Positions 21,701-64,000 of a stretch of DNA of 64,000 bases are shown one piece after another. The stretch spans positions 2,738,038 to 2,802,037 of the forward strand of contig OY848923.1 in NCBI GenBank assembly GCA_963693285.1. The letters run 5' to 3'. Positions within the stretch are counted from its first letter, which is position 1; each line of letters begins with the position of its first letter. The stretch comes from Xestospongia muta (lineage: Eukaryota; Porifera; Demospongiae; Haplosclerida; Petrosiidae). A program made the position numbers and the translations under genes. Below the pieces are notes generated by a model. That model saw only the letters and a list, made by a program, of their open reading frames with translations. It made no database searches and was not told the origin of the DNA.

Positions 21701-21941
21701 CTGAGAGTATTGAAATAAATTTGAGTATCATATTTGTTATAGTCAGTTAGTGATGTGTTATAAAGTAAAATTCGTCCATTCCCAGAACTGACTATGAGAA
21801 TTTCATCCTTGGTCCACATAGTTTTAACAATGAAAGGAGTGTTGATATGAGGATTTATTGTGACATAACATGTGATAGTCAGCTTACTACCAGCTAGATA
21901 ATCACTTTGTCTTGAAACATTCATAGTTAAAATAAGAGGAA
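18777..21941 (-). other. Receptor F membrane-proximal part: 2 Ig, 5 FN3-like, TM, tyrosine tail
   Basis: Ig exons 21585-21941 and 21153-21488 precede five FN3-like exons. One FN3 domain is split by a 45-nt intron (19756-19800). The transmembrane core is TTLIVIIILIFLISIILI, followed by RRKCKKR, a basic stop-transfer. The cytoplasmic tail has an NPxY motif (NPLYDNL), EYYDIPV and a C-terminal ELYM. NPxY binds PTB domains or endocytic adaptors and YDxP-type sites bind SH2 domains in known receptors; use here is inference. Confidence 0.8.
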
Positions 21942-24900: not shown

Positions 24901-25315
24901 AGTTGGTGTCACTATAAGTCTGTCAATGACTTCAACAGTACAATTCAAAAGGTACTCTTCACCAAGTTCTGTTTTATTAGACGTAATGATGTTAACTATA
25001 GGAGATTGTATGCCTATTAAATGTAAAGAATATTCACATGTATAATGGTAATTGCTGACTTATTTATATATATATAGCTTAAAACAATAGTTAAACCTTA
25101 TATTCAAATTGAAAATTTATGTATTAAATGTGCAATTTTTACAAAAATTTCTTCAATGTGTCAAGTCTTGAAATCCTTCATTAGATGCTACTTTATGGAA
25201 ATCAAGTAGACAGAAAATAGTCAAATAATCAAGCCAAACTAACTATATATGTAAGACAATTGTTCAAGAGGGTATTCTATTATATATGTATACATATACA
25301 TATACATATATATAC

Positions 25316-25376
<61 letters not shown>

Positions 25377-30804: not shown

Positions 30805-31531
30805 ATTTGTGGAAATAAAATTATTGACATGCTAACACTTTTTATAGAGCTCTATAGCTTCATACAAGCAGTTATAATGACTATACTGCAATCTGTAATT
30901 AAATATTTGAACTTATTTAGTATATCATGTTCAATGAGCCAGTTAAAATCATTTAACAGGTAAGATAATGAACTGCAATCAATTGTAGTTGGCACTTTAG
31001 CAATAAAAATGCTACTGTTGACTGTCTCGAGTTTAGTACTAAATTTGACATCATACATTTAGTTCCTTATGTAGTATGTAATGTAATCATTGCTTTAAAA
31101 TCGTGCTATATTAGCTATGACATTAAACCTGTATGGTATATAAAGTAGGTAGGCTGTTAGCTTAATGAAATTATGGTTCATGTTAACACAAGATATATTG
31201 TTAGTCCGTGTGTATGCATGTATATACCTTATAATATCTTGTTTATGAGCTTGTTTAGTTTTGCATTTAGAACTTTAGGAAGTTATTTAAATTTTGTACA
31301 AGCAATTATATGACAGCAAACTTGCATCTGATATTTTTTATAATAGCACTGTCAAGGTAAGGTCATCTTTTATATTTTACCAAGAATACAATTTTCAATT
31401 GTTACAACAAATTAACTGTTTACGTCATTAATATCACAACACATTAAAACACATTGTAAGACAATATAATAATTAGTGACATGTTCCACACATGTAATAG
31501 TAACTGTATAAATGTAATTCAATAATAATGT
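30805..31531. other. Spacer between receptors H and F
   Basis: 727 bp upstream of the F start and downstream of the H stop. The open frame at 30852-31058 has no domain. Part of this region recurs downstream of the H-like pseudogene (around 35340-35637), so it belongs to the duplicated H unit. Confidence 0.55.
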
Positions 31532-39950: not shown

Positions 39951-39953
39951 TAA

Positions 39954-40223: not shown

Positions 40224-43200
40224 TTACATCTTTGTTTCATCTGAAGTAGCCTCACATTCAGGTTTTGAAATTGACTCTGATATTTTGTCAACTACTGGTA
40301 CATCATAATATTCTGGAGATGATGGCAGGCTATCATACAGTGGGTCTATTGTTCTACAATGATACAATATAAAATATATAATTAAAGTTGAGTAATAATC
40401 AACTAACAATGGGTTTGTGGTAGAGTATCTAGAAAGATCTGTCATAGCAATCTGATCTCCTTGCCTGAGTACAATAATAATATTATGGGTGTAGTTAATA
40501 TATTCTATTATACTTACTGTAATCCAACTTTATATTTCTTATATTTCCTTTTAATTAAAATGATGGAAATCATAAATATCAGTATGATTATGACAATTAA
40601 AGTAATTGTTCCTAACACTCCTAAACTAGTATATTCAGAACTGCCACTATCTTTAGTGGATGCTGGTGGTGTCCCTAAAATGTGTCAAATTAATATATTA
40701 AAGATTGATGTAACTTACAATGTGACAAAATCCTTATTGGTATACTGTTAGGTCCTTCAATAATTTCTCCTCTTTCATTATATACTGCTATTCTCATAGT
40801 AAGTGCGTATGTCAATTGAGGATTTAGACTAGTTACATTGATAGATGTCTTATTAAATGGAACATGTACAGTTATATCACTTGATTGTCTACGTCTACTA
40901 TTGACAGCATCTAATACTATAATACACTCAAAGAAACCATGAGCTTCTTTTAGCGACACTTTCCTCCATACAATAACAATAGAGGTACCATCAGAAGATC
41001 TTCGTGTTGTGATATCAGTTGGGAAAGTAGATGGAGCTATACATAGAAGAAATGACAATAATTTTGGTACATGAAAATGTAGATTTTCATAAAGAGCTTT
41101 ACTTACTTTCAGTTTTAGTGAAGACAATAACTGACGCAATGTTACCTACTCCTAGTTCATTGACTGCTCCAATTGATATATAGTAAGGGACACCTGGACC
41201 TGTGGAGACAATATATTTACTAGTTAGTAATGAGTTGGACTTACGTAGTCCTCCAGTAATCTGTGTGTAAATATTCAATTGAGGATCAGCAGTAACTGTT
41301 AATGACATAATAACTCCACCAGTGATATCAATATTATAACTACTAATATATCCATTAGGTGTGATTGGTGGAGACCAAGTAAGGTTAACAGCAGTGTCAT
41401 TAACTACTGGTATAGTGTTAGCAACAAAAATATTACCAATAATAACTGGTATAACAATAAGAACTGGTTCAGAGGATACTAGAGAAATGTATGTAAAAGG
41501 GGATTATAAATAATACAAACTTACTATCAGGATCAGTCCTTCCTTCAATAGTAACACTAGGTCCATATCCAACTACTGTAGTAGCAGAAACAGTAGCAGT
41601 GTAATTTTGATAGATTGAGAATCCATCAACAGTGATAGATATTGTCTTTTGGTTAAGGGTCACATCAACTAATCTAGTAATTCTTCTAATTAAGTCAGTA
41701 CCTACATTGACTAAAACAACTAATCTATATTGTGTGATAATGCCATTAGGAGAAGCTGGATTCCTCCAGTTAAATGTTACATTAGTCTTAGTTGGAATAG
41801 AAGTGAAGTTTTGAGGAGCATCATCAGGTCCTATTTGGAGAATACAAAATTGATATTATGATGTGAACTTACTATCTTGAGCTGTTTTAAATGTATGTTG
41901 TGTAGCTGGTCCTTCACCAACAACATTAATAGATGACAATCTACAAGTGTACTCAGTAAATGGTACTAATACTGGAATAGTAAACATTGTCTCTGTAGAA
42001 CTCTGAGTGGCTGTTAGTCCAGAGACTTGAGGTCCATTGGTTTGTATACAAGTCAAATTGTATCCTACCACCTCTCCATTTTGATCTACTCTAACTGGTG
42101 GATCCCAGTATAATGTAACATTACGCGGAAGGAAGGTTGTGTTGATGAGGTTCCTTGGAGGACCAATTGGTACTACAAATAGAGACAATTGTCTTCAAAG
42201 CATCAAATTGTTGTTGACTCACGTGCTGCTAGAGTTGAGAAGTTCAATGTTTCACTACTAGTATTACCAATACAGTTAGTAGATACAACAGTGAAGTTAT
42301 AAGTGTTAGCTTCTTCTAGACCAGTTAATATGATCTGATATATCAAGTTAACAGCAGTGATGTTGTTAGTACCCACTAGACTAGAACTAGTAGTTAAAGT
42401 ATTCTGTAATTCCAGACCAATATAGTTGATATGATATATCTCAGGTGTATAGGCAATGGATGGAATAGTAAAGTAGACAGTAGAGTTAGTCTGTCCAACT
42501 ATTGAAGTTACATCAAAGACTGGATAAGGATTTCTTCGAGCTGTATTGTTGAAATGACATGAAAAATTGAATGATAATATAACATTAATATGTTTTCACT
42601 TACATCTCAAGGTGACAGCACTATCCTCTGTTAAACTAATGTCAGGAGACTCTGGAATGGTTAGTTTAGCTATGCAGGTGTAAGTACCAGAATCATTAGC
42701 AAAGCTTGTTGGGAAACTCAGAGTATTCATTACATAAGTGTCATCATTTTGAGTGGTAACTACACCTTGACATACTGTACCATTATGCAGCCACATCACT
42801 TTAAGAGCTGGTATTATTAGAGCTGGTTTACTAGCAGTACAAACTAGAGTTAAGTTATCATAAGGATCTGAGTCAGGACAAGTTGTCTCCAGACCTAGAA
42901 AAGAGTCTGGTCTTGTTGCAAAGTCCCTAATAACTGGGTCTGCAAGAAAAAGAAGTGTAATAATAAACTTCTTTATTTGAAGTCTCAAACAAAAATATTG
43001 TATTATAATTAATAAGGTAGTGAGCACATACCTACAACAGTAACGTTAGTAGTGATATTAGAAGTACTGGCTGATTTAATGTAGGTATAACCAGCTGTGG
43101 GTATCACATCAACGATACAAGTATATATACCAGAATCCATTGAACTACTGAGAGTACTAAATTGAACTTGAGACTGATAAGTGTTGAAGTCAGTTTTTAA

Positions 43201-43442: not shown

Positions 43443-46400
43443 CTGTAGAAAGTAAGTAAGAGTACATGTAATAGCAATACAGGAAAAACATTTAACAACA
43501 TAGGATTATATTGATAAAAATCCTACATTCATTTACTCACACTGCAATGATAAATCTTGTGTACTTGTGTTAGTTACTGTGACATTAATCTCATTTACTG
43601 TGATGGTAGCTTGACATGTATATTGTCCAGCATCAGAGGTATTAAGTGAAGAGAAGAACAGTGACAGAGAGTACATTGTATCTGAGATATTACGAAGTAC
43701 TGATGGTACACTGATAGTCTTTAGGTCATCAGATACTAATGATGTATTAACACTATCTTTGATCCATACAATAGTTGGTATCACTATAAGTCTGTCAATG
43801 ACTTCAACAGTACAATTCAAAAGGTACTCTTCACCAGGTACTGCTTTACCAGATGTCATAATGTTAACAACAGGAGATGGCAGGTCTATCCCAAACAAAG
43901 TATGTTTTACATTATATTATAGAGGTGAAAAATACAATATAATCATTCATAATATTTAATTTTAACAAAATATAATTAATTATTCTGACTAAATATTCTC
44001 TTACTTTGAACATTTATTGTAGTATTAGCTTTAGTTGAAGTGTTATGTACATAATGATAATCACTGACATTAGCTATAATAACAAAATTGCAGTAATATT
44101 CTCCACTATTATGAGCATTATAAAGTGGATTGAAATAAAGAGAAGATTTGTACTGAAAAGAACCAACTTGTGCCAGAGTTTCTATAATAGTAAATTCATT
44201 AGCAAGACCACTAGGTAAAGATATGTCATTATGTGTCCACTGAGTTCTCACAATAATAGGTATTGTAACAAAATCACTGAGTGTTAGTATACATCTAAGG
44301 AAGAATGGTGTACCGGCATAGAGTATATTGTCGTGTTCCTTAGATATGTTCACAGTCATTGGAGGGACTAAAATGTAGTAGCAATCATGTTAGAGGGTGG
44401 TGATAAATGTGGAACTTACAGTTTACAATAAGTTCAAGTTCTTTTACAGTTGAATGAGTATCATAAGTAGCAGTTGTTGGATCAATACTCCCATTAACAC
44501 CAGTCACATTGAACTCAGCCCTACACCTATATACTCCTCTGTCTTCAAATCTCACTGGTTCTAGTGTTATTGTCACATTACTTTCTGACCCAGCGTCGTC
44601 AGTGATAATAGAATAAGGAACATTTATATCTTGAAGTAAATATGTATCTGTAGTGTTCATTTTTGTTATTTCAATTGTAGGTTTGACAATTAATCTTTCT
44701 ACTACCCTCACTGTACAAGTGATATTAAGGTTTTGACCTACTTCAATTGAACCCTCAGTAAAGATATTTAACTGGATATCAGGTAAAGCTAGTAAAGAAA
44801 CCTAATTTTATATAAAAAAGTAAATATTACTTACTTTGAACAGTTACTGTGTCAGTAGTACTGTTTATTCCACTAATAATTAAAGGATCTGTTGAACTGA
44901 TATTCATCTGACAGGTATATCTCCCAGTGTCATTAAAGTTACTATTATGATCTCCATTATCAATTGGCAGGAACACTAGTGTACTCTCAAACTCATTGTT
45001 TCCATTACTAGTAACATTAGTGATCATACGTCGTGATTCAACAGGTATAGTATTGCCTTGAGGATCAAACCAAACTACAGTAGCTGACACTGTTGTGTCC
45101 ACTACACTGAGTAGTGTACCAGTACAGGTCAGATTAAAGAGTGTACTCTCATAGACAGGACCAGTGGAAGGACCATGTGTGATAACCATACTGGGAGGAG
45201 GGACTACAAAAAGCACTAGTGTTAGAGTTAGTGCATTATATAAACTCACTTTGAACATTGAGTTCCCTGTATGTGTGATCAATGACTCCTAAGTTATTAA
45301 ATATGCTTGAGCAATAATACCTTCTACCATCAGATGTCTTAACTGGATTAAGTGTTAGAGTACTTAAGAAAAGATTACCAATTCTTGTTGCATTTCCTAT
45401 TGTAGCATCATTGTTATTTACATCAACTCTTTGTTCTCCAGCTACATCATAACTCCATATTATTGAATTAGGTTCATGTACTAGTCTCTCAGGTATTCTG
45501 ATATTACATGTCATAGAGAACTTGTCTCCAGCAGTGGGTGTGGTTGGAAATAGGATATTAGTTGTCACATGATCAGAAGAGAAATCTATGAAATAATATA
45601 AATAATAATTATTAATATTATATTGAATGTACCTGATACTATAAGAGACACAGTTTTGGCATTATCATTACCAGTAATATAAGAAGATACAGGAGTTGGT
45701 AGAACATTTACAGTACAAGAGTACATAGTACCATTGTCTCTACTATTACTCAAATTTTCAATACGTAATGTACTAGTGTACATGTGCGATCCTAACATAG
45801 TCAGTGAACTAATAGTATAGTCACTGTTATTAGTAAGAGGAGAACTACCATTGTGAGACCACTCAACATCAACATTAACTCCAGTATTGATAGCATCACT
45901 GATACTAACAGTACATACTATATCAAGATATGTTCCCTCCACTAATGTACTAGTATTGACAGGATGAGTAGAAATAGCAATGACTGGTTGAGGAACTAAA
46001 TTGATGAAAATGAAATAGTTTTTTTATTGAAATTCTACTTACTTTGTAGTATTAGGTCTTGTATGCTAGCATTAGTTACCGTGACATTAATCTCATTCAC
46101 TGTGATAGTAGCTTGACATGTATATTGTCCAGCATCAGAGGTATTAAGTGAAGAGAAGAACAGTGACAGAGAGTACATTGTATCTGAGATATTACGAAGC
46201 ACTGATGGTACACTGATAGTCTTTAGGTCATCAGATACTAATGATCTGTTAACACTATCTTTGATCCATATGATAGTTGGTGTTACTATAAGTCTGTCAA
46301 TGACTTCAACAGTACAATTCAAAAGGTACTCTTCACCAGGTACTGCTTTAACAGATGTCATAATGTTAACAACAGGAGATGGCAGATCTATCCCAAACAA

Positions 46401-49400
46401 AGTATGTTTTACATTATTTTATTAGGTGAATAATACAATGTAATTATTCATAATATTTAATTTTAACAAAATATAATTAATTATTCTGACTAAATATTCT
46501 CTTACTTTGAACATTTATTGTAGTATTAGCTTTAGTTGAAGTGTTATGTACATAATGATAATCACTGACATTAGCTATAATAACAAAATTGCAGTAATAT
46601 TCTCCACTATTATGAGCATTATAAAGTGGATTGAAATAAAGAGAAGATTTGTACTGAAAAGAACCAACTTGTGCCAGAATTTCTATAATAGTAGATTCAT
46701 TAGCAAGACCACTAGGTAAAGATATGTCATTATGTGACCATTGAGTTCTCACAATAATAGGTATTGTAACAAGATCACTCAGTGTTAGTATACATCTAAG
46801 GAAGAATGGTGTACCGGCATAGAGTATATTTTTGTGTTCCTTAGATATGTTCACAGTCACTGGAGGGACTAAAAGAAGTAAGAATCATACTAGAGCATGG
46901 TGATAAATGTGGAACTTACAGTTTACAATAAGTTCAAGTTCTTTTACAGTTGAATGAGTATCATAAGTAGCAGTTGTTGGATCAATACTCCCATTAACAC
47001 CAGTCACATTGAACTCAGCCCTACACCTATATACTCCTCTGTCTTCAAATCTCACTGGTTCTAGTGTTATTGTCACATTACTTTCTGACCCAGCGTCGTC
47101 AGTGATGATAAAATAAGGAACATTTATATCTTGAAGTAAATATGTATCTGTAGTGTTCATTTTTGTTATTTCAATTGTAGGTTTGACAATTAATCTTTCT
47201 ACTACCCTCACTGTACAAGTGATATTAAGGTTTTGACCTACTTCAATAGAACCCACAGTAAAGATATTTAACTGGATATCAGGTAAAGCTAGTAAAGAAA
47301 CCTAATTTTATATAAAAAAGTAAATATTACTTACTTTGAACAGTTACTGTGTCAGTAGTACTGTTTATTCCACTAATAATTAAAGGATCTGTTGAACTGA
47401 TATTCATCTGACAGGTATATCTCCCAGTGTCATTAAAGTTACTATTATGATCTCCATTATCAATTGGTAGGAACACTAGTGTACTCTCAAACTCATTGTT
47501 TCCATTACTAGTAACATTATTGATCATACGTCGTGATTCAACAGGTATAGTATTGCCTTGAGGATCAAACCAAACTACAGTAGCTGACACTGTTGTGTCC
47601 ACTACACTGAGTAGTGTACCAGTACAGGTCAGATTAAAGAGTGTACTCTCATAGACAGGACCAGTGGAAGGACCATGTGTGATAACCATACTGGGAGGAG
47701 GGACTACAAAAAGCACTAGTGTTAGAGTTAGTGCATTATATAAACTCACTTTGAACATTGAGTTCCCTGTATGTGTGATCAATGACTCCTAAGTTATTAA
47801 ATATGCTTGAGCAATAATACCTTCTACCATCAGATGTCTTAACTGGATTAAGTGTTAGAGTACTTAAGAAAAGATTACCAATTCTTGTTGCATTTCCTAT
47901 TGTAGCATCATTGTTATTTACATCAACTCTTTGTTCTCCAGCTACATCATAACTCCATATTATTGAATTAGGTTCATGTACTAGTCTCTCAGGTATTCTG
48001 ATATTACATGTCATAGAGAACTTGTCTCCAGCAGTGGGTGTGGTTGGAAATAGGATATTAGTTGTCACATGATCAGAAGAGAAATCTATGAAATAATATA
48101 AATAATAATTATTAATATTATATTGAATGTACCTGATACTATAAGAGACACAGTTTTGGCATTATCATTACCAGTAATATAAGAAGATACAGGAGTTGGT
48201 AGAACATTTACAGTACAAGAGTACATAGTACCATTGTCTCTACTATTACTCAAATTTTCAATACGTAATGTACTAGTGTACATGTGCGATCCTAACATAG
48301 TCAGTGAACTAATAGTATAGTCACTGTTATTAGTAAGAGGAGAACTACCATTGTGAGACCACTCAACATCAACACTAACTCCAGTATTGATAGCATCACT
48401 GATACTAACAGTACATACTATATCAAGATATGTTCCCTCCACTAATGTACTGGTATTGACAGGATGAGTAGAAATAGCAATGACTGGTTGAGGAACTAAA
48501 TTGGTGAAAATGAAATAGTTTTATTTATTGAAATTCTACTTACTTTGTAGTATTAGGTCTTGTATGCTAGCATTAGTTACCGTGACATTAATCTCATTCA
48601 CTGTGATAGTAGCTTGACATGTATATTGTCCAGCATCAGAGGTATTAAGTGAAGAGAAGAACAGTGACAGAGAGTACATTGTATCTGAGATATTACGAAG
48701 CACTGATGGTACACTGATAGTCTTTAGGTCATCAGATACTAATGATCTGTTAACACTATCTTTGATCCATACAATAGTTGGTGTCACTATAAGTCTGTCA
48801 ATGACTTCAACAGTACAATTCAAAAGGTACTCTTCACCAGGTACTGCTTTACCAGATGTCATAATGTTAACAACAGGAGATGGCAGATCTATCCCAAACA
48901 AAGTATGTTTTACATTATATTATTAGGTGAATAATACAATGTAATTATTCATAATATTTAATTTTAACAAAATATAATTAATTATTCTGACTAAATATTC
49001 TCTTACTTTGAACATTTATTGTAGTATTAGCTTTAGTTGAAGTGTTATGTACATAATGATAATCACTGACATTAGCTATAATAACAAAATTGCAGTAATA
49101 TTCTCCACTATTATGAGCATTATAAAGTGGATTGAAATAAAGAGAAGATTTGTACTGAAGTGAACCAACTTGTACCAGAATTTCTATAATAGTAGATTCA
49201 TTAGCAAGACCACTAGGTGAAGATATGTCATTATGTGACCATTGAGTTCTCACAATAATAGGTATTGTAACAAGATCACTCAGTGTTAGTATACATCTAA
49301 GGAAGAATGGTGTACCGGCATAGAGTATATTTTCGTGTTCCTTAGATATGTTCACAGTCATTGGAGGGACTAAAAGTAGTAGCAATCATGTTAGAATGTG

Positions 49401-52400
49401 CTGATGAATGTGGAACTTACAGTTTACAATAAGTTCAAATTCTTTTACAGTTGAATGAGTATCGTAAGTAGCAGTTGTTGGATCAATAGTACCATTAACA
49501 TCAGTCACATTGAACTCAGCCATACACCTATATACTCCTCTGTCTTCAAATCTCACTGGTTCTATTGTTATTGTCACATTACTTTCTGACCCAGCGTCGT
49601 CAGTGATAATAGAATAAGGAACGTTTATATCTTGAAGTAAATATGTATCTGTAGTGTTCATTTTTGTTATTTCAATTGTAGGTTTGACAATTAATCTCTC
49701 CACTACCCTCACTGTACAAATGATATTAAGGTTTTGACCTACTTCAGTAGAACCCACAGTAAAGATATTTAACTGGATATCAGGTAAAGCTAGTAAAGAA
49801 ACCTAATTTTATATAAAAAAGTAAATATTACTTACTTTGAACAGTTACTGTGTCAGTAGTACTGTTTATTCCACTAATAATTAAAGGATCTGTTGAACTG
49901 ATATTCATCTGACAGGTATATCTCCCAGTGTCATTAAAGTTACTATTATGATCTCCATTATCAATTGGCAGGAACACTAGTGTACTCTCAAACTCATTGT
50001 TTCCATTACTAGTAACATTATTGATCATACGTCGTGATTCAACAGGTATAGTATTGCCTTGAGGATCAAACCAAACTACAGTAGCTGACACTGTTGTGTC
50101 CACTACATTGGGTAGTGTACCAGTACAGGTCAGATTAAAGAGTGTACTCTCATAGACAGGACCGGTGGAAGGACCATGTGTGATAACCATACTGGGAGGA
50201 GGGACTACAAAAAGCACTAGTGTTAGAGTTAGTACATTATATAAACTCACTTTGAACATTGAGTTCCCTGTATGTGTGATCAATGACTCCTAAGTTATTA
50301 AATATGCTTGAGCAATAATACCTTCTACCATCAGATGTCTTAACTGGATTAAGTGTTAGAGTACTTAAGAAAAGATTACCAATTCTTGTTGCATTTCTTA
50401 TTGTAGCATCACTGTTATTTACATCAACTCTTTGTTCTCCAGCTACATCATAACTCCATATTATTGAATTAGGTTCATGTACTAGTCTCTCAGGTATTCT
50501 GATATTACATGTCATAGAGAACTTGTCTCCAGCAGTGGGTATGGTTGGAAATAGGATATTAGTTGTCACATGATCAGAAGAGAAATCTATGAAATAATAT
50601 AAATAATAATTATTAATATCATATTGAATGTACCTGATACTATAAGAGACACAGTCTTGCCATTGTCATTACCAGTAATATAAGATGATACAGGAGTTGG
50701 TAGAACATTTACAGTACAAGAGTACATAGTACCATTGTCTCTACTATTACTCAAATTTTCAATACGTAATATACTAGTGTACATGTGCGATCCTAACATA
50801 GTCAGTGAACTAATAGTATAGTCACTGTTATTAGTAAGAGGAGAACTACCATTGTGAGACCACTCAACATCAACATTAACTCCAGTATTGATAGCATCAC
50901 TGATACTAACAGTACATACTATATCAAGATATGTTCCCTCCACTAATGTACTAGTATTGACAGGATGAGTAGAAATAGCAATGACTGGTTGAGGAACTAA
51001 ATTGATGAAAATGAAATAGTTTTTTTATTGAAATTCTACTTACTTTGTAGTATTAGGTCTTGTATGCTAGTATTAGTTACCGTGACATTAATCTCATTCA
51101 CTGTGATAGTAGCTTGACATGTATATTGTCCAGCATCAGAGGTATTAAGTGAAGAGAAGAACAGTGACAGAGAGTACATTGTATCTGAGATATTACGAAG
51201 CACCGATGGTACACTGATAGTCTTTAGGTCATCAGATACTAATGATCTGTTAACACTATTTTTGATCCATATGATAGTTGGTGTTACTATAAGTCTGTCA
51301 ATGACTTTAACAGTACAATTCAAAAGGTACTCTTCACCAGGTACTGCTTTACCAGATGTCATAATGTTAACAACAGGAGATGGCAGGTCTGTCCCAAACA
51401 AAGTGTGTTTAATATTACATAATAGAGTTGAAAAATACAATGTAATCATTCTAATATATTATTTAACAATATATAATTAATTAATTTTAACTAAATATTC
51501 TCTTACTTTGAACATTTATTGTAGTATTAGCTTTAGTTGAAGTGTTATGTACATAATGATAATCACTGACATTAGCTATAATAACAAAATTGCAGTAATA
51601 TTCTCCACTATTATGAGCATTATAAAGTGGATTGAAATAAAGAGAAGATTTGTACTGAAGTGAACCAACTTGTACCAGAATTTCTATAATAGTAGATTCA
51701 TTAGCAAGACCACTAGGTGAAGATATGTCATTATGTGACCATTGAGTTCTCACAATAATAGGTATTGTAACAAGATCACTCAGTGTTAGTATACATCTAA
51801 GGAAGAATGGTGTACCGGCATAGAGTATATTGTCGTGTTCCTTAGATATGTTCACAGTCATTGGAGGGACTAAATGTAGTAACAGTTATGTTAGAATGTG
51901 CTGATAAATGTGGAACTTACAGTTTACAATAAGTTCAAATTCTTTTACAGTTGAATGAGTATCATAAGTAGCAGTTGTTGGATCAATACTCCCATTAACA
52001 CCAGTCACATTGAACTCAGCCCTACACCTATATACTCCTCTGTCTTCAAATCTCACTGGTTCTAGTGTTATTGTCACATTACTTTCTGACCCAGTGTCGT
52101 CAGTGACAATAGAATAAGGAACATTTATATCTTGAAGTAAATATGTATCTGTAGTGTTCATTTTTGTTATTTCAATTGTAGGTTTGACAATTAATCTCTC
52201 CACTACCCTCACTGTACAAATGATATTAAGGTTTTGACCTACTTCAGTAGAACCCACAGTAAAGATATTTAACTGGATATCAGGTAAAGCTAGTAAAGAA
52301 ACCTAATTTTATATAAAAAAGTAAATATTACTTACTTTGAACAGTTACTGTGTCAGTAGTACTGTTTATTCCACTAATAATTAAAGGATCTGTTGAACTG

Positions 52401-55400
52401 ATATTCATCTGACAGGTATATCTCCCAGTGTCATTAAAGTTACTATTATGATCTCCATTATCAATTGGCAGGAACACTAGTGTACTCTCAAACTCATTGT
52501 TTCCATTACTAGTAACATTAGTGATCATACGTCGTGATTCAACAGGTATAGTATTGCCTTGAGGATCAAACCAAACTACAGTAGCTGACACTGTTGTGTC
52601 CACTACATTGGGTAGTGTACCAGTACAGGTCAGATTAAAGAGTGTACTCTCATAGACAGGACCGGTGGAAGGACCATGTGCGATAACCATACTGGGAGGA
52701 GGGACTACAAAAAGCACTAGTGTTAGAGTTAGTACATTATATAAACTCACTTTGAACATTGAGTTCCCTGTATGTGTGATCAATGACTCCTAAGTTATTA
52801 AATATGCTTGAGCAATAATACCTTCTACCATCAGATGTCTTAACTGGATTAAGTGTTAGAGTACTTAAGAAAAGATTACCAATTCTTGTTGCATTTCTTA
52901 TTGTAGCATCACTGTTATTTACATCAACTCTTTGTTCTCCAGCTACATCATAACTCCATATTATTGAATTAGGTTCATGTACTAGTCTCTCAGGTATTCT
53001 GATATTACATGTCATAGAGAACTTGTCTCCAGCAGTGGGTATGGTTGGAAATAGGATATTAGTTGTCACATGATCAGAAGAGAAATCTATGAAATAATAT
53101 AAATAATAATTATTAATATCATATTGAATGTACCTGATACTATAAGAGACACAGTCTTGCCATTGTCATTACCAGTAATATAAGATGATACAGGAGTTGG
53201 TAGAACATTTACAGTACAAGAGTACATAGTACCATTGTCTCTACTATTACTCAAATTTTCAATACGTAATATACTAGTGTACATGTGCGATCCTAACATA
53301 GTCAGTGAACTAATAGTATAGTCACTGTTATTAGTAAGAGGAGAACTACCATTGTGAGACCACTCAACATCAACATTAACTCCAGTATTGATAGCATCAC
53401 TGATACTAACAGTACATACTATATCAAGATATGTTCCCTCCACTAATGTACTAGTATTGACAGGATGAGTAGAAATAGCAATGACTGGTTGAGGAACTAA
53501 ATTGATGAAAATGAAATAGTCTTTTTATTGAAATTCTACTTACTTTGTAGTATTAGGTCTTGTATGCTAGTATTAGTTACCGTGACATTAATCTCATTCA
53601 CTGTGATAGTAGCTTGACATGTATATTGTCCAGCATCAGAGGTATTAAGTGAAGAGAAGAACAGTGACAGAGAGTACATTGTATCTGAGATATTACGAAG
53701 CACCGATGGTACACTGATAGTCTTTAGGTCATCAGATACTAATGATCTGTTAACACTATTTTTGATCCATATGATAGTTGGTGTTACTATAAGTCTGTCA
53801 ATGACTTTAACAGTACAATTCAAAAGGTACTCTTCACCAGGTACTGCTTTACCAGATGTCATAATGTTAACAACAGGAGATGGCAGGTCTGTCCCAAACA
53901 AAGTGTGTTTAATATTACATAATAGAGTTGAAAAATACAATGTAATCATTCTAATATATTATTTAACAATATATAATTAATTAATTTTAACTAAATATTC
54001 TCTTACTTTGAACATTTATTGTAGTATTAGCTTTAGTTGAAGTGTTATGTACATAATGATAATCACTGACATTAGCTATAATAACAAAATTGCAGTAATA
54101 TTCTCCACTATTATGAGCATTATAAAGTGGATTGAAATAAAGAGAAGATTTGTACTGAAGTGAACCAACTTGTACCAGAATTTCTATAATAGTAGATTCA
54201 TTAGCAAGACCACTAGGTGAAGATATGTCATTATGTGACCATTGAGTTCTCACAATAATAGGTATTGTAACAAGATCACTCAGTGTTAGTATACATCTAA
54301 GGAAGAATGGTGTACCGGCATAGAGTATATTGTCGTGTTCCTTAGATATGTTCACAGTCATTGGAGGGACTAAATGTAGTAACAGTTATGTTAGAATGTG
54401 CTGATAAATGTGGAACTTACAGTTTACAATAAGTTCAAATTCTTTTACAGTTGAATGAGTATCATAAGTAGCAGTTGTTGGATCAATACTCCCATTAACA
54501 CCAGTCACATTGAACTCAGCCCTACACCTATATACTCCTCTGTCTTCAAATCTCACTGGTTCTATTGTTATTGTCACATTACTTTCTGACCCAGTGTCGT
54601 CAGTGACAATAGAATAAGGAACATTTATATCTTGAAGTAAATATGTATCTGTAGTGTTCATTTTTGTTATTTCAATTGTAGGTTTGACAATTAATCTCTC
54701 CACTACCCTCACTGTACAAATGATATTAAGGTTTTGACCTACTTCAGTAGAACCCACAGTAAAGATATTTAACTGGATATCAGGTAAAGCTAGTAAAGAA
54801 ACCTAATTTTATATAAAAAAGTAAATATTACTTACTTTGAACAGTTACTGTGTCAGTAGTACTGTTTATTCCACTAATAATTAAAGGATCTGTTGAACTG
54901 ATATTCATCTGACAGGTATATCTCCCAGTGTCATTAAAGTTACTATTATGATCTCCATTATCAATTGGCAGGAACACTAGTGTACTCTCAAACTCATTGT
55001 TTCCATTACTAGTAACATTAGTGATCATACGTCGTGATTCAACAGGTATAGTATTGCCTTGAGGATCAAACCAGACTACAGTAGCTGACACGGTTGTGTC
55101 CACTACACTGGGTAGTGTACCAGTACATGTCAGGTTGAAGTTAGTACTCTCATAGATAGGACCAGTAGAAGGACCATGTGTGATAACCATACTGGGAGGA
55201 GGGACTACAAAAAGCACTAGTGTTAGAGTTAGTGCATTATATAAACTCACTTTGAACATTGAGTTCCCTGTATGTGTGATCAATGACTCCTAAGTTATTA
55301 AATATGCTTGAGCAATAATACCTTCTACCATCAGATGTCTTAACTGGATTAAGTGTTAGAGTACTTAAGAAAAGATTACCAATTCTTGTTGCATTTCCTA

Positions 55401-58400
55401 TTGTAGCATCATTGTTATTTACATCAACTCTTTGTTCTCCAGCTACATCATAACTCCATATTATTGAATTAGGTTCATGTACTAGTCTCTCAGGTATTCT
55501 GATATTACATGTCATAGAGAACTTGTCTCCAGCAGTGGGTGTGGTTGGAAATAGGATATTAGTTGTCACATGATCAGAAGAGAAATCTATGAAATAATAT
55601 AAATAATAATTATTAATATTATATTGAATGTACCTGATACTATAAGAGACACAGTTTTGGCATTATCATTACCAGTAATATAAGAAGATACAGGAGTTGG
55701 TAGAACATTTACAGTACAAGAGTACATAGTACCATTGTCTCTACTATTACTCAAATTTTCAATACGTAATGTACTAGTGTACATGTGCGATCCTAACATA
55801 GTCAGTGAACTAATAGTATAGTCACTGTTATTAGTAAGAGGAGAACTACCATTGTGAGACCACTCAACATCAACACTAACTCCAGTATTGATAGCATCAC
55901 TGATACTAACAGTACATACTATATCAAGATATGTTCCCTCCACTAATGTACTGGTATTGACAGGATGAGTAGAAATAGCAATGACTGGTTGAGGAACTAA
56001 ATTGGTGAAAATGAAATAGTTTTATTTATTGAAATTCTACTTACTTTGTAGTATTAGGTCTTGTATGCTAGCATTAGTTACCGTGACATTAATCTCATTC
56101 ACTGTGATAGTAGCTTGACATGTATATTGTCCAGCATCAGAGGTATTAAGTGAAGAGAAGAACAGTGACAGAGAGTACATTGTATCTGAGATATTACGAA
56201 GCACTGATGGTACACTGATAGTCTTTAGGTCATCAGATACTAATGATGTATTAACACTATCTTTGATCCATACAATAGTTGGTATCACTATAAGTCTGTC
56301 AATGACTTCAACAGTACAATTCAAAAGGTACTCTTCACCAGGTACTGCTTTACCAGATGTCATAATGTTAACAACAGGAGATGGCAGATCTATCCCAAAC
56401 AAAGTATGTTTTACATTATATTATTAGGTGAATAATACAATGTAATTATTCATAATATTTAATTTTAACAAAATATAATTAATTATTCTGACTAAATATT
56501 CTCTTACTTTGAACATTTATTGTAGTATTAGCTTTAGTTGAAGTGTTATGTACATAATGATAATCACTGACATTAGCTATAATAACAAAATTGCAGTAAT
56601 ATTCTCCACTATTATGAGCATTATAAAGTGGATTGAAATAAAGAGAAGATTTGTACTGAAGTGAACCAACTTGTACCAGAATTTCTATAATAGTAGATTC
56701 ATTAGCAAGACCACTAGGTGAAGATATGTCATTATGTGACCATTGAGTTCTCACAATAATAGGTATTGTAACAAGATCACTCAGTGTTAGTATACATCTA
56801 AGGAAGAATGGTGTACCGGCATAGAGTATATTTTCGTGTTCCTTAGATATGTTCACAGTCATTGGAGGGACTAAAAGTAGTAGCAATCATGTTAGAATGT
56901 GCTGATGAATGTGGAACTTACAGTTTACAATAAGTTCAAATTCTTTTACAGTTGAATGAGTATCGTAAGTAGCAGTTGTTGGATCAATAGTACCATTAAC
57001 ACCAGTCACATTGAACTCTGCCATACACCTATATACTCCTCTGTCTTCAAATCTCACTGGTTCTATTGTTATTGTCACATTACTTTCTGACCCAGCGTCG
57101 TCAGTGATAATAGAATAAGGAACGTTTATATCTTGAAGTAAATATGTATCTGTAGTGTTCATTTTTGTTATTTCAATTGTAGGTTTGACAACTAATCTTT
57201 CCACTACCCTCACTGTACAAGTGATATTAAGGTTTTGACCTACTTCAGTAGAACCCTCAGTAAAGATATTTAACTGGATATCAGGTAAAGCTAGTAAAGA
57301 AACCTAATTTTATATAAAAAAGTAAATATTACTTACTTTGAACAGTTACTGTGTCAGTAGTACTGTTTATTCCACTAATAATTAAAGGATCTGTTGAACT
57401 GATATTCATCTGACAGGTATATCTCCCAGTGTCATTAAAGTTACTATTATGATCTCCATTATCAATTGGCAGGAACACTAGTGTACTCTCAAACTCATTG
57501 TTTCCATTACTAGTAACATTAGTGATCATACGTCGTGATTCAACAGGTATAGTATTGCCTTGAGGATCAAACCAAACTACAGTAGCTGACACTGTTGTGT
57601 CCACTACATTGGGTAGTGTACCAGTACAGGTCAGATTAAAGAGTGTACTCTCATAGACAGGACCGGTGGAAGGACCATGTGTGATAACCATACTGGGAGG
57701 AGGGACTACAAAAAGCACTAGTGTTAGAGTTAGTGCATTATATAAACTCACTTTGAACATTGAGTTCCCTGTATGTGTGATCAATGACTCCTAAGTTATT
57801 AAATATGCTTGAGCAATAATACCTTCTACCATCAGATGTCTTAACTGGATTAAGTGTTAGAGTACTTAAGAAAAGATTACCAATTCTTGTTGCATTTCCT
57901 ATTGTAGCATCACTGTTATTTACATCAACTCTTTGTTCTCCAGCTACATCATAACTCCATATTATTGAATTAGGTTCATGTACTAGTCTCTCAGGTATTC
58001 TGATATTACATGTCATAGAGAACTTGTCTCCAGCAGTGGGTATGGTTGGAAATAGGATATTAGTTGTCACATGATCAGAAGAGAAATCTATGAAATAATA
58101 TAAATAATAATTATTAATATCATATTGAATGTACCTGATACTATAAGAGACACAGTCTTGCCATTGTCATTACCAGTAATATAAGATGATACAGGAGTTG
58201 GTAGAACATTTACAGTACAAGAGTACATAGTACCATTGTCTCTACTATTACTCAAATTTTCAATACGTAATATACTAGTGTACATGTGCGATCCTAACAT
58301 AGTCAGTGAACTAATAGTATAGTCACTGTTATTAGTAAGAGGAGAACTACCATTGTGAGACCACTCAACATCAACATTAACTCCAGTATTGATAGCATCA

Positions 58401-61400
58401 CTGATACTAACAGTACATACTATATCAAGATATGTTCCCTCCACTAATGTACTAGTATTGACAGGATGAGTAGAAATAGCAATGACTGGTTGAGGAACTA
58501 AATTGATGAAAATGAAATAGTTTTTTTATTGAAATTCTACTTACTTTGTAGTATTAGGTCTTGTATGCTAGTATTAGTTACCGTGACATTAATCTCATTC
58601 ACTGTGATAGTAGCTTGACATGTATATTGTCCAGCATCAGAGGTATTAAGTGAAGAGAAGAACAGTGACAGAGAGTACATTGTATCTGAGATATTACGAA
58701 GCACCGATGGTACACTGATAGTCTTTAGGTCATCAGATACTAATGATCTGTTAACACTATTTTTGATCCATATGATAGTTGGTGTTACTATAAGTCTGTC
58801 AATGACTTTAACAGTACAATTCAAAAGGTACTCTTCACCAGGTACTGCTTTACCAGATGTCATAATGTTAACAACAGGAGATGGCAGGTCTGTCCCAAAC
58901 AAAGTGTGTTTAATATTACATAATAGAGTTGAAAAATACAATGTAATCATTCTAATATATTATTTAACAATATATAATTAATTAATTTTAACTAAATATT
59001 CTCTTACTTTGAACATTTATTGTAGTATTAGCTTTAGTTGAAGTGTTATGTACATAATGATAATCACTGACATTAGCTATAATAACAAAATTGCAGTAAT
59101 ATTCTCCACTATTATGAGCATTATAAAGTGGATTGAAATAAAGAGAAGATTTGTACTGAAGTGAACCAACTTGTACCAGAATTTCTATAATAGTAGATTC
59201 ATTAGCAAGACCACTAGGTGAAGATATGTCATTATGTGACCATTGAGTTCTCACAATAATAGGTATTGTAACAAGATCACTCAGTGTTAGTATACATCTA
59301 AGGAAGAATGGTGTACCGGCATAGAGTATATTGTCGTGTTCCTTAGATATGTTCACAGTCATTGGAGGGACTAAATGTAGTAACAGTTATGTTAGAATGT
59401 GCTGATAAATGTGGAACTTACAGTTTACAATAAGTTCAAATTCTTTTACAGTTGAATGAGTATCATAAGTAGCAGTTGTTGGATCAATACTCCCATTAAC
59501 ACCAGTCACATTGAACTCAGCCCTACACCTATATACTCCTCTGTCTTCAAATCTCACTGGTTCTAGTGTTATTGTCACATTACTTTCTGACCCAGTGTCG
59601 TCAGTGATAATAGAATAAGGAACATTTATATCTTGAAGTAAATATGTATCTGTAGTGTTCATTTTTGTTATTTCAATTGTAGGTTTGACAATTAATCTCT
59701 CCACTACCCTCACTGTACAAATGATATTAAGGTTTTGACCTACTTCAGTAGAACCCACAGTAAAGATATTTAACTGGATATCAGGTAAAGCTAGTAAAGA
59801 AACCTAATTTTATATAAAAAAGTAAATATTACTTACTTTGAACAGTTACTGTGTCAGTAGTACTGTTTATTCCACTAATAATTAAAGGATCTGTTGAACT
59901 GATATTCATCTGACAGGTATATCTCCCAGTGTCATTAAAGTTACTATTATGATCTCCATTATCAATTGGCAGGAACACTAGTGTACTCTCAAACTCATTG
60001 TTTCCATTACTAGTAACATTATTGATCATACGTCGTGATTCAACAGGTATAGTATTGCCTTGAGGATCAAACCAAACTACAGTAGCTGACACTGTTGTGT
60101 CCACTACATTGGGTAGTGTACCAGTACAGGTCAGATTAAAGAGTGTACTCTCATAGACAGGACCGGTGGAAGGACCATGTGTGATAACCATACTGGGAGG
60201 AGGGACTACAAAAAGCACTAGTGTTAGAGTTAGTGCATTATATAAACTCACTTTGAACATTGAGTTCCCTGTATTTGTGATCAATGACTCCTAAGTTATT
60301 AAATATGCTTGAGCAATAATACCTTCTACCATCAGATGTCTTAACTGGATTAAGTGTTAGAGTACTTAAGAAAAGATTACCAATTCTTGTTGCATTTCTT
60401 ATTGTAGCATCACTGTTATTTATATCAACTCTTTGTTCTCCAGCTACATCATAACTCCATATTATTGAATTAGGTTCATGTACTAGTCTCTCAGGTATAT
60501 TAATATTACATGTCATAGAGAACTTGTCTCCAGCAGTGGGTATGGTTGGAAATAGGATATTAGTTGTCACATGATCAGAAGAGAAATCTATGAAATAATA
60601 TAAATAATAATTATTAATATCATATTGAATGTACCTGATACTATAAGAGACACAGTCTTGCCATTGTCATTACCAGTAATATAAGAAGATACAGGAGTTG
60701 GTACAACACTAAAAGTACAAGAGTACATAGTACCATTGTCTCTACTATTACTCAGATTTTCAATACGTAATGTACTAGTGTACATGTGCGATCCTAACAT
60801 AGTCAGTGAACTAATAGTATAGTCACTGTTATTAGTAAGAGGAGAACTACCATTGTGAGACCACTCAACATCAACACTAACTCCAGTATTGATAGCATCA
60901 CTGATACTAACAGTACATACTATATCAAGATATGTTCCCTCCACTAATGTACTGGTATTGACAGGATGAGTAGAAATAGCAATGACTGGTTGAGGAACTA
61001 AATTGGTGAAAATGAAATAGTTTTATTTATTGAAATTCTACTTACTTTGTAGTATTAGGTCTTGTATGCTAGTATTAGTTACCGTGACAATAATCTCATT
61101 CACTGTGATAGTAGCTTGACATGTATATTGTCCAGCATCAGAGGTATTAAGTGAAGAGAAGAACAGTGACAGAGAGTACATTGTATCTGAGATATTACGA
61201 AGCACTGATGGTACACTGATAGTCTTTAGGTCATCAGATACTAATGATCTGTTAACACTATCTTTGATCCATATGATAGTTGGTGTTACTATAAGTCTGT
61301 CAATGACTTCAACAGTACAATTCAAAAGGTACTCTTCACCAGGTACTGCTTTAACAGATGTCATAATGTTAACAACAGGAGATGGCAGATCTATCCCAAA

Positions 61401-64000
61401 CAAAGTATGTTTTACATTATTTTATTAGGTGAATAATACAATGTAATTATTCATAATATTTAATTTTAACAAAATATAATTAATTATTCTGACTAAATAT
61501 TCTCTTACTTTGAACATTTATTGTAGTATTAGCTTTAGATGAAGTGTTATGTACATAATGATAATCACTGACATTAGCTATAATAACAAAATTGCAGTAA
61601 TATTCTCCACTATTATGAGCATTATAAAGTGGATTGAAATAAAGAGAAGATTTGTACTGAAGTGAACCAACTTGTACCAGAATTTCTATAATAGTAGATT
61701 CATTAGCAAGACCACTAGGTGAAGATATGTCATTATGTGACCATTGAGTTCTCACAATAATAGGTATTGTAACAAGATCACTCAGCGTTAGTATACATCT
61801 AAGGAAGAATGGTGTACCGGCATAGAGTATATTTTCGTGTTCCTTAGATATGTTCACAGTCATTGGAGGGACTAAAAGTAGTAGCAATCATGTTAGAATG
61901 TGCTGATAAATATGCAACTTACAGTTTACAATAAGTTCAAATTCTTTTACAGTTGAATGAGTATCATAAGTAGCAGTTGTTGGATCAATACTCCCATTAA
62001 CACCAGTCACATTGAACTCAGCCCTACACCTATATACTCCTCTGTCTTCAAATCTCACTGGTTCTAGTGTTATTGTCACATTACTTTCAGACCCAGTGTT
62101 GTCAGTGATAATAAAATAAGGAACATTTATATCTTGAAGTAAATATGTATCTGTAGTGTTTAATTTTGTTATTTCAATTGTTGGTTTGACAATTAATCTC
62201 TCCACTACTCTCACTGTACAAGTGATATTAAGGTTTTGACCTACTTCAATAGAACCCTCAGTAAAGATATTTAACTGGATATCAGGTAAAGCTAGTAAAG
62301 AAACCCCTAGTTTTCAATAAATAAGTAAATATTACTTACTTTGAACAGTTACTTTGAAAGTAGTACTGTTTATTCTGCTAATAATTAAAGGATCTGTTGA
62401 ACTGATATTCATCTGACAGGTATATCTCCCAGTGTCATTAAAGTTACTATTATGATCTCCATTATCAATTGGTAGGAACACTAGTGTACTCTCAAACTCA
62501 TTGTTTCCATTATTAGTAACATTAGTGATCATACGTCGTGATTCAACAGGTATAGTATTGCCTTGAGGATCAAACCAGACTACAGTAACTGACACTGTTG
62601 TGTCCACTACACTGGGTAGTGTACCAGTACAGGTTAGGTTGAAGAGAGTACTCTCATAAATATGATCAGAAAAACTGCTAGTTATGGCCATATTGAGTGG
62701 AGGGACTGAGAAATGAAATCCGATCATGGTAGTCACTTGTCACAATAAACACTTACTTTGTACATTAAGATTTCTCATTAAATGATCATTGACACCTAAA
62801 TCATTAAATATCACTGAACAATAATATCTTCTACCATCAGATGTCTTCACTGGGTTAAGTGTTAGATTACTCAAGATCAGATTACCAATTTTAGTCACAT
62901 TTTTTATTGTAGCATCACTGTTAATTACATCGACTCTTTGTACTCTAACTAGATCATAACTCCATATTACTGCAAGTCTAGTAAGATCATGTACTAGTCT
63001 CCCTGGTATACCGATATTACATGTCATAGTTAATTGGTCTCCAGCAGTGGGTGTGGTTGGAAATAGAATATTAATTATCACATGATCAGCAGTGAAATCT
63101 ATAAATTAATTAATAACAATAACATTATTAGTACATGTACAATATTAAGTATTATACCTGCCACATTTAGTGTAAGACTGTTGTTATTCTTATTACCAGT
63201 AATATAAGAAGATACAGGAGATGGTAGAACACTCACAGTACAAGAGTACATAGCACCATTGTCTCTAGTATTACGCAAACTTTTAATGCGTAATGAACTA
63301 ATATACACATGTGATCCTAACATAGTCAGTGAACTAATAGTATAGTCACTGTTGTTAGTAAGAGGAGAACCACCATTATAAGACCACTCAACATCAACAT
63401 TAACTCCAGTATTAACAGCATCACTGATGTTAACAGTACATACTATATCAAGATATGTTGCCTCTATTAGTGAACTTGGATCAACAGGATGAGTAGAGAC
63501 AGTAACAACTGGTTTTATAACTAGTGGTAAAAACAATTTAAGATTATACTAATGGGATTATTTTATAATATATTACGTTTATAAATATTATATAGCTGTT
63601 GGCTTAGGAACTAGAGTGAAGAGATAAAGGCAATTGAGGAGTATACTGATCATGTGATATGCACATGACTTATTAACTATTTAATTTATAATTAGTAAAA
63701 ATAATTAATAATAATTAATGTATTAAATGTTATAACTCACTAGTAGTATTGATAATAAAAGTCTTAATATAAGAGACTTGATAACTGATATCAATCTGAC
63801 TGATGTTTACTACACATTGATACTGTCCACTATGTGATGTCATCAGTGGAGTGTAGGATATAGACACACTGTTATCTCCAGAGCTAATAGATGAGTTAAC
63901 CACACCTTCTCCAATTTTTGCAATACTTGTATTAACAACAATGTCCGGTAGATTATCATATACATCAACAATACATACTACAAAATAGCTCTCTCCAGCA
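40224..64000 (-). CDS. Receptor G: giant Ig/FN3 receptor with eight six-Ig cassettes (5' end outside window)
   Basis: Exons from the C-terminus: tail 40224-40353 and 40408-40464, transmembrane 40518-40674, FN3-like 40719-41036, 41107-41199 plus 41245-41478, 41525-41830, 41873-42172 and 42223-42540, Ig 42604-42939 and 43032-43442, then eight cassettes of six Ig exons from 43541 to 63520, and a partial Ig exon from 63741 to the window edge. The coding sum in the window is about 20.1 kb, near 6,690 residues, with at least 51 Ig domains. Every complete ectodomain exon is divisible by three and no stop was found. The transmembrane core ITLIVIIILIFMISIILI is followed by KRKYKKYK. The tail carries PLYDSL and EYYDVPV; the NPxY of receptor F is DPLY here. 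It is a paralogue of F with six more cassettes. The signal peptide must lie beyond 64000. Confidence 0.87.
43541..45995 (-). repeat. Receptor G Ig cassette 1 (membrane-proximal)
   Basis: Type 1 43541-43885, type 2 44005-44367, type 3 44420-44788, type 4 44835-45203, type 5 45250-45585, type 6 45633-45995. Type 1 has the VNTSLV variant seen also in cassette 6 and in F. Conserved strands: type 1 LLNC/DAGQYTC, type 2 FLRC/SGEYYC, type 3 NITC/DRGVYRC, type 4 NLTC/TGRYTC, type 5 SMTC/GRRYYC, type 6 DIVC/NGTMYSC. Confidence 0.92.
46043..48495 (-). repeat. Receptor G Ig cassette 2
   Basis: Type 1 46043-46387, type 2 46506-46868, type 3 46920-47288, type 4 47335-47703, type 5 47750-48085, type 6 48133-48495. 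The intron after type 1 is the form with TTAGGTGAATAATACAATG (form A). Types 4 to 6 are almost identical to cassette 1. Confidence 0.92.
48544..50996 (-). repeat. Receptor G Ig cassette 3
   Basis: Type 1 48544-48888, type 2 49007-49369, type 3 49421-49789, type 4 49836-50204, type 5 50251-50586, type 6 50634-50996. Form A intron after type 1. Types 1 to 3 match cassette 6 closely (for example EHENILY and the CTGATGAATG intron). Confidence 0.92.
51044..53496 (-). repeat. Receptor G Ig cassette 4
   Basis: Type 1 51044-51388, type 2 51507-51869, type 3 51921-52289, type 4 52336-52704, type 5 52751-53086, type 6 53134-53496. Form B intron after type 1 (AATAGAGTTGAAAAATACAA). Types 1 and 2 are identical in protein to cassettes 5 and 7. 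Confidence 0.92.
53544..55996 (-). repeat. Receptor G Ig cassette 5
   Basis: Type 1 53544-53888, type 2 54007-54369, type 3 54421-54789, type 4 54836-55204, type 5 55251-55586, type 6 55634-55996. Form B intron. Types 1 to 3 match cassette 4, while types 5 and 6 match cassette 2 and type 4 has the IYESTNF form found in F, so the unit is a mosaic. Confidence 0.92.
56045..58497 (-). repeat. Receptor G Ig cassette 6
   Basis: Type 1 56045-56389, type 2 56508-56870, type 3 56922-57290, type 4 57337-57705, type 5 57752-58087, type 6 58135-58497. Form A intron. Together with cassette 7 it mirrors the cassette 3-4 pair; its type 1 carries the IVIPTIVW and VNTSLV variants of cassette 1. Confidence 0.92.
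58545..60997 (-). repeat. Receptor G Ig cassette 7
   Basis: Type 1 58545-58889, type 2 59008-59370, type 3 59422-59790, type 4 59837-60205, type 5 60252-60587, type 6 60635-60997. Form B intron. Types 1 and 2 equal cassettes 4 and 5; types 5 and 6 have private changes (NINIPERL, CTFSVVP). Confidence 0.92.
61046..63520 (-). repeat. Receptor G Ig cassette 8 (outermost in window)
   Basis: Type 1 61046-61390, type 2 61509-61871, type 3 61923-62291, type 4 62340-62705 (366 nt), type 5 62757-63098 (342 nt), type 6 63158-63520. Types 1 to 3 match the amplified cassettes, but types 4 to 6 match the outer cassette of receptor F (DLTRLAVIWSYD, VEWSYNGGSPL, last intron). This marks the outer edge of the amplification. 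Confidence 0.92.
63741..64000 (-). CDS. Partial Ig exon of receptor G at window edge
   Basis: Donor at 63736-63740; the exon continues past 64000. It is homologous to 27636-27941 of receptor F, where the complete exon is 306 nt. It belongs to the same reading frame as cassette 8. Confidence 0.85.

Follow-up and report, generated by a model that had tools for sequence, protein, structure and literature searches.

An eight-unit, six-Ig cassette array in a predicted membrane receptor gene of the sponge Xestospongia muta

Based on exon mapping, gene modelling and genome-wide comparison, we ask what kind of gene carries eight successive copies of a six-Ig cassette in a haplosclerid sponge, and how such an array may have come about. 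The window, i.e. the whole stretch of DNA that was analysed, comprises 64,000 nucleotides (C7:2738038-2802037), and the genome searched 158.0 Mb in 28 contigs. A preliminary description had placed eight units with the same six Ig exons in the same order at 43541-63520, and all 48 exons (eight units of six types, t1-t6, on the minus strand) were located within exactly those outer coordinates. One open frame with intact splice sites had likewise been claimed correctly: each of the 48 exons has an AG acceptor, a GT donor, a length divisible by three and phase 1-1, and when joined they give 5,721 codons with 0 stops. The unit size of 715 residues applies to seven units, while unit 8, the 5'-most, has 716. 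Similarly, the unit length of 2,500-2,502 bp agrees with six of the seven start-to-start distances (2,500-2,501) and with the spacing of the type-6 exons (2,500-2,502), but not with the step from unit 8 to unit 7 (2,523). Introns within the array measure 46-119 bp, and exon length changes are absent from units 1-7.

The cassette exons carry the cysteine signature of Ig domains, as expected for an IgSF receptor, with C-YxC in 48 of 48 and the full C-W-YxC core in 40 of 48 (t4 being without the W). In Pfam, a whole unit matches Ig_3 (E 5.6e-28); of the single unit-1 exons, t4 and t6 score above the cut-off, t1-t3 below (best E 1e-4 to 0.002), and t5 has no match. We nevertheless tie t5 to the other cassette types, because a type-1 query matches the t5 positions in all eight units in the genome search (E ~1e-5) and because its profile aligns with that of t6 (E 5.9e-5, probability 65%). 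Among solved structures, the best hits of the t5 profile are a bacterial secretin (E 0.13) and the Ig protein PECAM-1 (E 0.91), and the related protein P0022, discussed below, has no match; predicted structures for t5 and P0022 are unusable, with mean pLDDT of only 36 and 38.

Addition of 2.9 kb past the window end (locus L009) closed the model of the eight-unit receptor gene, hereafter R8, which comprises 67 exons on the minus strand (window 40224-66881), a 22,392-nt CDS and 7,463 residues, without a non-canonical splice site. As the model is closed at both ends, the earlier size of more than 6,690 residues is exceeded and was an underestimate. The order is signal, N-Ig1, N-Ig2, five Fn3, N-Ig3, 48 cassette Ig, C-Ig1, C-Ig2, five Fn3, TM, tail1 and tail2 (Table 1), that is 53 Ig-like and 10 Fn3 domains plus a signal exon, a transmembrane (TM) exon and a short tyrosine tail; the model holds 256 N-glycosylation sequons. 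Pfam returns no match for N-Ig1 (nor for that of the paralogue F) or N-Ig3, both termed Ig-like on cysteine spacing, and N-Ig2, alone among the five non-cassette Ig-like exons, fails both cysteine patterns and has a weak Ig_2 match in Pfam. Pfam detects two fn3 stretches in the N-terminal and three in the C-terminal five-exon stretch, several Fn3 exons, including two of C-Fn1-5, being assigned by series, without a Pfam match of their own. Signal peptide, single TM and cytoplasmic tail are all predicted (gene model, inspection by eye and hydrophobic-run scan), which bears out the membrane anchor claimed before. R8 is thus probably a single gene for a predicted type I membrane receptor of ~7,460 aa, as part of the joint explanation set out below.

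Table 1. Features of R8 and its paralogue F, in window numbering.
Feature	Coordinates	Strand	Remarks
Signal exon	66776-66881 (beyond window)	-	GT-AG, phase 1; begins MREFVRILLICVELILIAA
Signal, N-Ig1, N-Ig2, N-Fn1-5	64306-66881 (outside window, locus L009)	-	gene model
N-Ig3	63741-64046 (in-window part 63741..64000)	-	GT-AG, phase 1
Unit 8 (5'-most), t1-t6	61046..63520	-	apparent hybrid: t1-t3 old type, t4-t6 like other units
Unit 7, six Ig exons	58545..60997	-	exon mapping
Unit 6, six Ig exons	56045..58497	-	nearest to unit 3, differing at 11 exon bases and 1 intron base
Unit 5, six Ig exons	53544..55996	-	exon mapping
Unit 4, six Ig exons	51044..53496	-	nearest to unit 7, differing at 17 exon bases and 1 intron base
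Unit 3, six Ig exons	48544..50996	-	exon mapping
Unit 2, six Ig exons	46043..48495	-	exon mapping
Unit 1 (3'-most), six Ig exons	43541..45995	-	exon mapping
C-Ig1	43032-43442	-	Ig exon 3' of array; weak Ig matches in Pfam
C-Ig2	42604-42939	-	Ig exon 3' of array; clear Pfam Ig match
C-Fn1 to C-Fn5, five Fn3 exons	40719..42540	-	PF00041 E 2.3e-30 over five-exon stretch
Transmembrane exon	40518..40674	-	LGVLGTITLIVIIILIFMISIILI then KRKYKKYK; by eye and hydrophobic-run scan
Cytoplasmic tail	tail1 40408-40464, tail2 40224-40353	-	motif LYDSLPSSPEYYDVPVV; ends in stop codon
Paralogue F	18900..30900	-	R8-like architecture, two six-Ig units
F first type-6 exon	~24660-25012	-	frameshifted relative to other copies

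Assembly error is unlikely to be the source of the eight units, because each differs from all the others and exact repeats within R8 extend to 1,708 bp at most. Units 1-7 differ pairwise at 11-64 of 2,127 exon bases and at 1-29 intron bases. According to excerpts of the genome report, the odXesMuta1.1 assembly spans 158.52 Mb (QV 56.3), an alternate haplotype exists, chromosome 7 measures 8.28 Mb at 32.5% GC, and hifiasm was run on 83.29 Gb of PacBio HiFi data in 6.72 million reads (~72x), i.e. an average read of ~12.4 kb (PMC12398682). Reads of such length easily cover repeats of up to 1.7 kb, while the 20-kb array exceeds the average read. This last point speaks for a real array with fewer or more units, a reading that we consider highly improbable given at least 11 differing exon bases in every unit pair, the limited exact repeats, a gene free of N letters, and the published quality value and depth.

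Very high Ig counts are known from titin, which also has super-repeats, and from hemicentin. The titin family is cytosolic and sarcomeric and has a kinase domain, nebulin is cytosolic too, and hemicentin is secreted and carries an N-terminal VWA domain. R8, in contrast, is predicted to be membrane-anchored, and the earlier label 'titin-like' fits its domain count and little else: a signal exon and a TM are present, and Pfam accepts only Ig and Fn3 in the cassette unit and the N- and C-terminal parts. For the N-terminal 272 aa, where hemicentin has its VWA domain, Pfam gives a weak Ig_2 match only. In-frame amplification of a multi-exon block within one gene is nonetheless shared with the titin super-repeats and with nebulin, for which an excerpted account describes a triplicate region of eight exons repeated three times (PMC9109913).

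Closer kinship was found with receptor phosphatases (RPTPs). A composite query (R8 N part, unit 8 and C part, without units 1-7; 7,991 candidates scored) returned 21 proteins, of which the top four, at 45-52% identity, are from A. queenslandica, two of them with PTP domains; next come PTPRQ-type phosphatases of Halichondria and vertebrates, matched across Fn3 at 23-31%. By domain, the four A. queenslandica proteins are 30-69% identical to R8 from N-Ig1 to N-Fn5. P0003 and P0004 combine these N-terminal domains with a PTP, and R8 is like RPTPs with Ig/Fn3 ectodomains, these two sponge proteins included, in N-Ig1, N-Ig2 and the Fn3 series. A gene at C7:686-695 kb also has the t1-t6 cassette in common with R8, PTP exons lying next on its strand at 681.3-683.6 kb. 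Unlike RPTPs, R8 has a short tyrosine tail, eight cassettes and no PTP catalytic domain: a tblastn search (E<=1e-3) with the PTP portion of P0004 finds no match in the 134 kb surrounding R8, the matches being confined to one tile set (A_0664), with none in six others including that of R8. The PTP-less Ig/Fn3 proteins P0001 and P0002 of A. queenslandica are 35-69% identical to R8 by domain in their N-terminal domains, and P0001 resembles it also in the tail, where EPVYDTTNNEYETP occurs; unlike in R8, the six-Ig cassette was not found in either by domain comparison. By its sequence, the R8 ectodomain is assigned to a receptor-phosphatase-related sponge superfamily. Matches of P0004 in the X. muta genome are 43-67% identical among those listed (29 of 1,333 candidates scored), and PTP-domain matches number at least 199 (150 of 521 candidates scored). 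Large PTP clusters lie at C11:3.76-3.99 Mb, C12:0.98-1.33 Mb, C2:9.41-9.70 Mb and C7:0.31-0.72 Mb, which we interpret as a major expansion of phosphatases in X. muta.

The tail of R8 had previously been called a signalling tail. It does bear tyrosines, in the motifs Y[DE]xL and YxxP, and a signalling role is suggested by the conservation of these motifs. YxxP is like a Crk-type SH2 site. The ITIM/ITAM consensus ([ILVS]xYxx[ILV] or YxxL/I-x(6-12)-YxxL/I) does not fit the R8 motif LYDSLPSSPEYYDVPVV by eye, P standing at -2 of YDSL, and the second tyrosine site is off this consensus in spacing and +3 residue. The tyrosine tail pattern follows C-Fn5, the membrane-proximal Fn3 exon, at 11 of its 15 loci in the tiles, with both tyrosines in 10 (2311 kb having lost the second), and PTP exons follow it at two (673 and 686 kb); of the remaining loci, one continues into an EGF-like and an Ig segment (2853 kb) and one is a fragment (window 38 kb). 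By eye, the EGF-like plus Ig-like segment at C7:2853030 replaces the C-terminus of a family member. At C7:3152-3164 kb (L024, L025), C-Fn5 runs directly into the tyrosine tail, a hydrophobic segment not being found between them; the gene may represent a soluble form, a deletion or a pseudogene.

R8 does not stand alone in this genome. C-Fn5 has 49 genome matches (55 of 55 candidates scored), of which the 36 at E<=1e-30 all lie on C7 at 1.761-3.659 Mb, spanning 1.9 Mb, and 32 of these are stop-free within the match. As the type-4 exon alone has at least 127 genome matches, chance origin is not an issue; at least 49 of them reach E<=1e-30, eight of those in R8, both counts being lower bounds with 150 of 201 candidates scored. 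Exon-type mapping of relatives in 23 tiles and the window detected three consecutive six-Ig units at C7 3119 kb and 3152 kb, one plus three at 3640 kb (in one gene or two), two in F and at 2314 kb, and one at 686 kb. Other blocks are multiplied as well: [t1,t2] twice at C7 2297 kb, [N-Ig3,t3,t4] four times at 2829 kb, and [t3,t4] three times at 2844 kb and twice at 2889 kb. Some exons of relatives are split into two matches, e.g. t6 and t5 at 3152 kb, and intactness is therefore not required of every relative gene. No array of R8 length was found in the 23 tiles and the window, nor among the type-1, -3, -4 and -6 matches listed. R8 is the extreme, among those sampled, of a domain-block amplification seen in several relatives. 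The earlier statement that such a receptor layout is undescribed is uncontradicted by the open-licence papers searched, in which we found no description of the R8 family or of a receptor that repeats a six-Ig cassette, and no paper on intragenic Ig duplication; the layout is, however, not isolated. An isolated oddity was considered for R8 and rejected, since several relatives carry amplified cassettes. Fragments of related exons adjoin R8, namely C-Fn3/4/5 at window ~38020-38860 (plus strand, 69-83%) and N-Fn4/N-Fn5 immediately downstream at ~39680-40150 (minus strand, 84-95%).

The superfamily exceeds the cassette family, because every one of the 150 candidates scored for N-Ig1, out of 178 found, is a match, and these are spread over nine contigs. 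N-Ig1 of R8 is 80-81% identical to that of F, C7:2907028, C9:5674748 and C7:235228, and 44-50% identical to those of other cassette genes. Its closeness to F and three other loci and its distance from the other cassette genes make it seem that the N-terminal module has been exchanged between genes.

How the array grew can be approached through F, for which two units had been reported; both were found, although the first type-6 exon is frameshifted compared to other copies. This exon could be skipped in splicing if it is phase 1-1 like the others. Trees of t1, t4 and t6 exons (28, 36 and 26 sequences, respectively, drawn from 15 named gene regions; at least 60% identity and 100 residues required) group the t1 exons of units 1-7 with the inner t1 of F (100/99), and t1 of unit 8 with the outer one (97/92). 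From these t1 groupings, two cassettes were probably present in the common ancestor of F and R8, and the inner one expanded in R8. Units 1-7 are mutually 97.0-99.5% identical in exons and 91.8-99.7% in introns, and the mean identity of unit 8 to the other units is 83-91% over t1-t3 and 96-99% over t4-t6. We interpret unit 8 as old t1-t3 joined to homogenised t4-t6, the putative recombination edge. Unit similarity peaks at offsets of one and three units, and the longest exact repeats occur at offsets of 7,501, 5,001 and 2,500. Units 6 and 3 are each other's closest, as are, by exon count, 7 and 4, which, together with the two longest exact repeats both at 7,501, points to a later block exchange across three units. 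A simple three-unit copy is insufficient to explain the whole pattern, as unit 5 is closer to unit 4 than to unit 2.

Selection on R8 is mostly purifying. Pooled pN/pS is 0.41 over 21 non-independent pairs of units 1-7, and exons are more conserved than introns in most unit pairs, with the reverse in 7/5, 7/4, 6/3 and 5/4. Between R8 and F, compared without the signal, TM and tail exons, dN/dS is 0.42 in the N part (797 codons), 0.49 for unit 8 against both F units (1,367 cassette codons) and 0.54 in the C part (745 codons); single exons near or above 1 are C-Fn1 (1.02) and t1 of unit 8 (1.48, with very few synonymous changes). The pN/pS value, the less conserved introns in most unit pairs, and units 1-7 free of stops and exon length changes argue against a neutral process in which unequal crossing-over would ratchet in-frame cassettes up and down, most of them tolerated or spliced out. 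Such a process would be eased by phase 1-1 exons and 46-119-bp introns, which render gain, loss and skipping frame-neutral, and it would agree with the varying cassette number of relatives and with the frameshifted cassette exon in F; we judge it improbable.

Alternatively, the array may be mechanical, a tether or ruler linking cells to distant cells or to the matrix of the mesohyl, in which cassette number sets reach and not specificity. Homogenised cassettes under purifying selection rather than diversification, as well as the many glycosylation sequons, are compatible with this, and an excerpted review primarily associates sponge IgSF with adhesion and intercellular recognition (PMC11999971). 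However, the conserved tyrosine tail, the clustering of paralogues and fragments and the RPTP kinship fit a signalling recognition family equally well or better, and we regard a mainly mechanical array as possible but unlikely.

With moderate confidence, we instead propose that R8 is an RPTP-related recognition or adhesion receptor, with an array expanded by unequal crossing-over from two ancestral units and a tail that would serve phosphotyrosine signalling. From sequence features, R8 is classified as a predicted receptor of the IgSF/Fn3 type, akin to RPTPs and with an extreme array of cassettes inside one gene. It would belong to a large, clustered Ig/Fn3 family evolving by birth and death and sharing an RPTP-type ectodomain, R8 itself carrying conserved tyrosines in a short tail. 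The cassettes would be held in register for unequal crossing-over by their nearly identical exons and very small introns, and whole six-Ig blocks would thereby be added or removed while the frame is kept. The product may form a long multivalent rod that would bind ligands on other cells, matrix or microbes; with 63 domains at ~4 nm each, its extended length would be roughly 250 nm. On ligand binding, the tail tyrosines in Y[DE]xL and YxxP would be phosphorylated and would recruit SH2 adaptors, an effect presumably opposed by RPTPs with the same ectodomain as R8. As to immune or allogeneic recognition versus adhesion, the units change in a purifying rather than a diversifying manner, which tilts slightly to avidity or reach, and the clustering, the turnover and the exchange of modules point towards recognition.

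To our knowledge, the sponge receptors for allorecognition and symbiont recognition are not settled. The C7 cluster represents a concrete candidate family, with at least 36 strong C-Fn5 copies, a common tail pattern and relatives that bear phosphatases, and its cassette numbers, ranging between one and eight, provide a natural series on ectodomain length and valency versus recognition. With phase 1-1 exons and very short introns, a receptor can grow by 715 residues per event with the frame kept. The R8 family may be likened to the Alr allorecognition family of Hydractinia, in which IgSF membrane receptors are likewise clustered and their tails presumed to signal; we know of no large cassette arrays in Alr. 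The Alr family has 41 members according to the excerpted review (PMC11999971). An allorecognition role for the R8 family, known here from one haplotype, is a candidate function only. More speculative, and in our view quite improbable, is that cassette number constitutes a heritable, fast-changing code of length and valency that differs between individuals and underlies self/non-self or symbiont recognition, acting together with phosphatase-bearing and phosphatase-less receptors built on one ectodomain.

No multi-cassette protein of another species was detected in a protein search with units 2 and 1 joined. P0023 and P0024 are 70% and 64% identical, on contigs of 524 and 390 kb, and have intron-like residues between domains; they look genomic in origin. 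P0022, of JGI origin (756 aa, contig of 2,923 bases), is 52% identical across 84% of a unit. It spans t2-t3-t4-t5-t6-C-Ig1 without an intron residue, at the junctions predicted in R8, and past C-Ig1 continues with VVGKSPKPSS, as if the donor had been read through or an intron retained. The uninterrupted run across predicted junctions, followed by a stretch resembling a retained intron, suggests a cDNA from a related sponge. Elsewhere in the window, tandem Ras-family small GTPase paralogues lie on the minus strand at 2929-3471, 9077-9550, 12187-12492 and 15698-16114, the four open frames matching the C-terminal part of PF00071 (E 2e-14 to 3.7e-17), and the open frame of the R8 tail has no match in Pfam.
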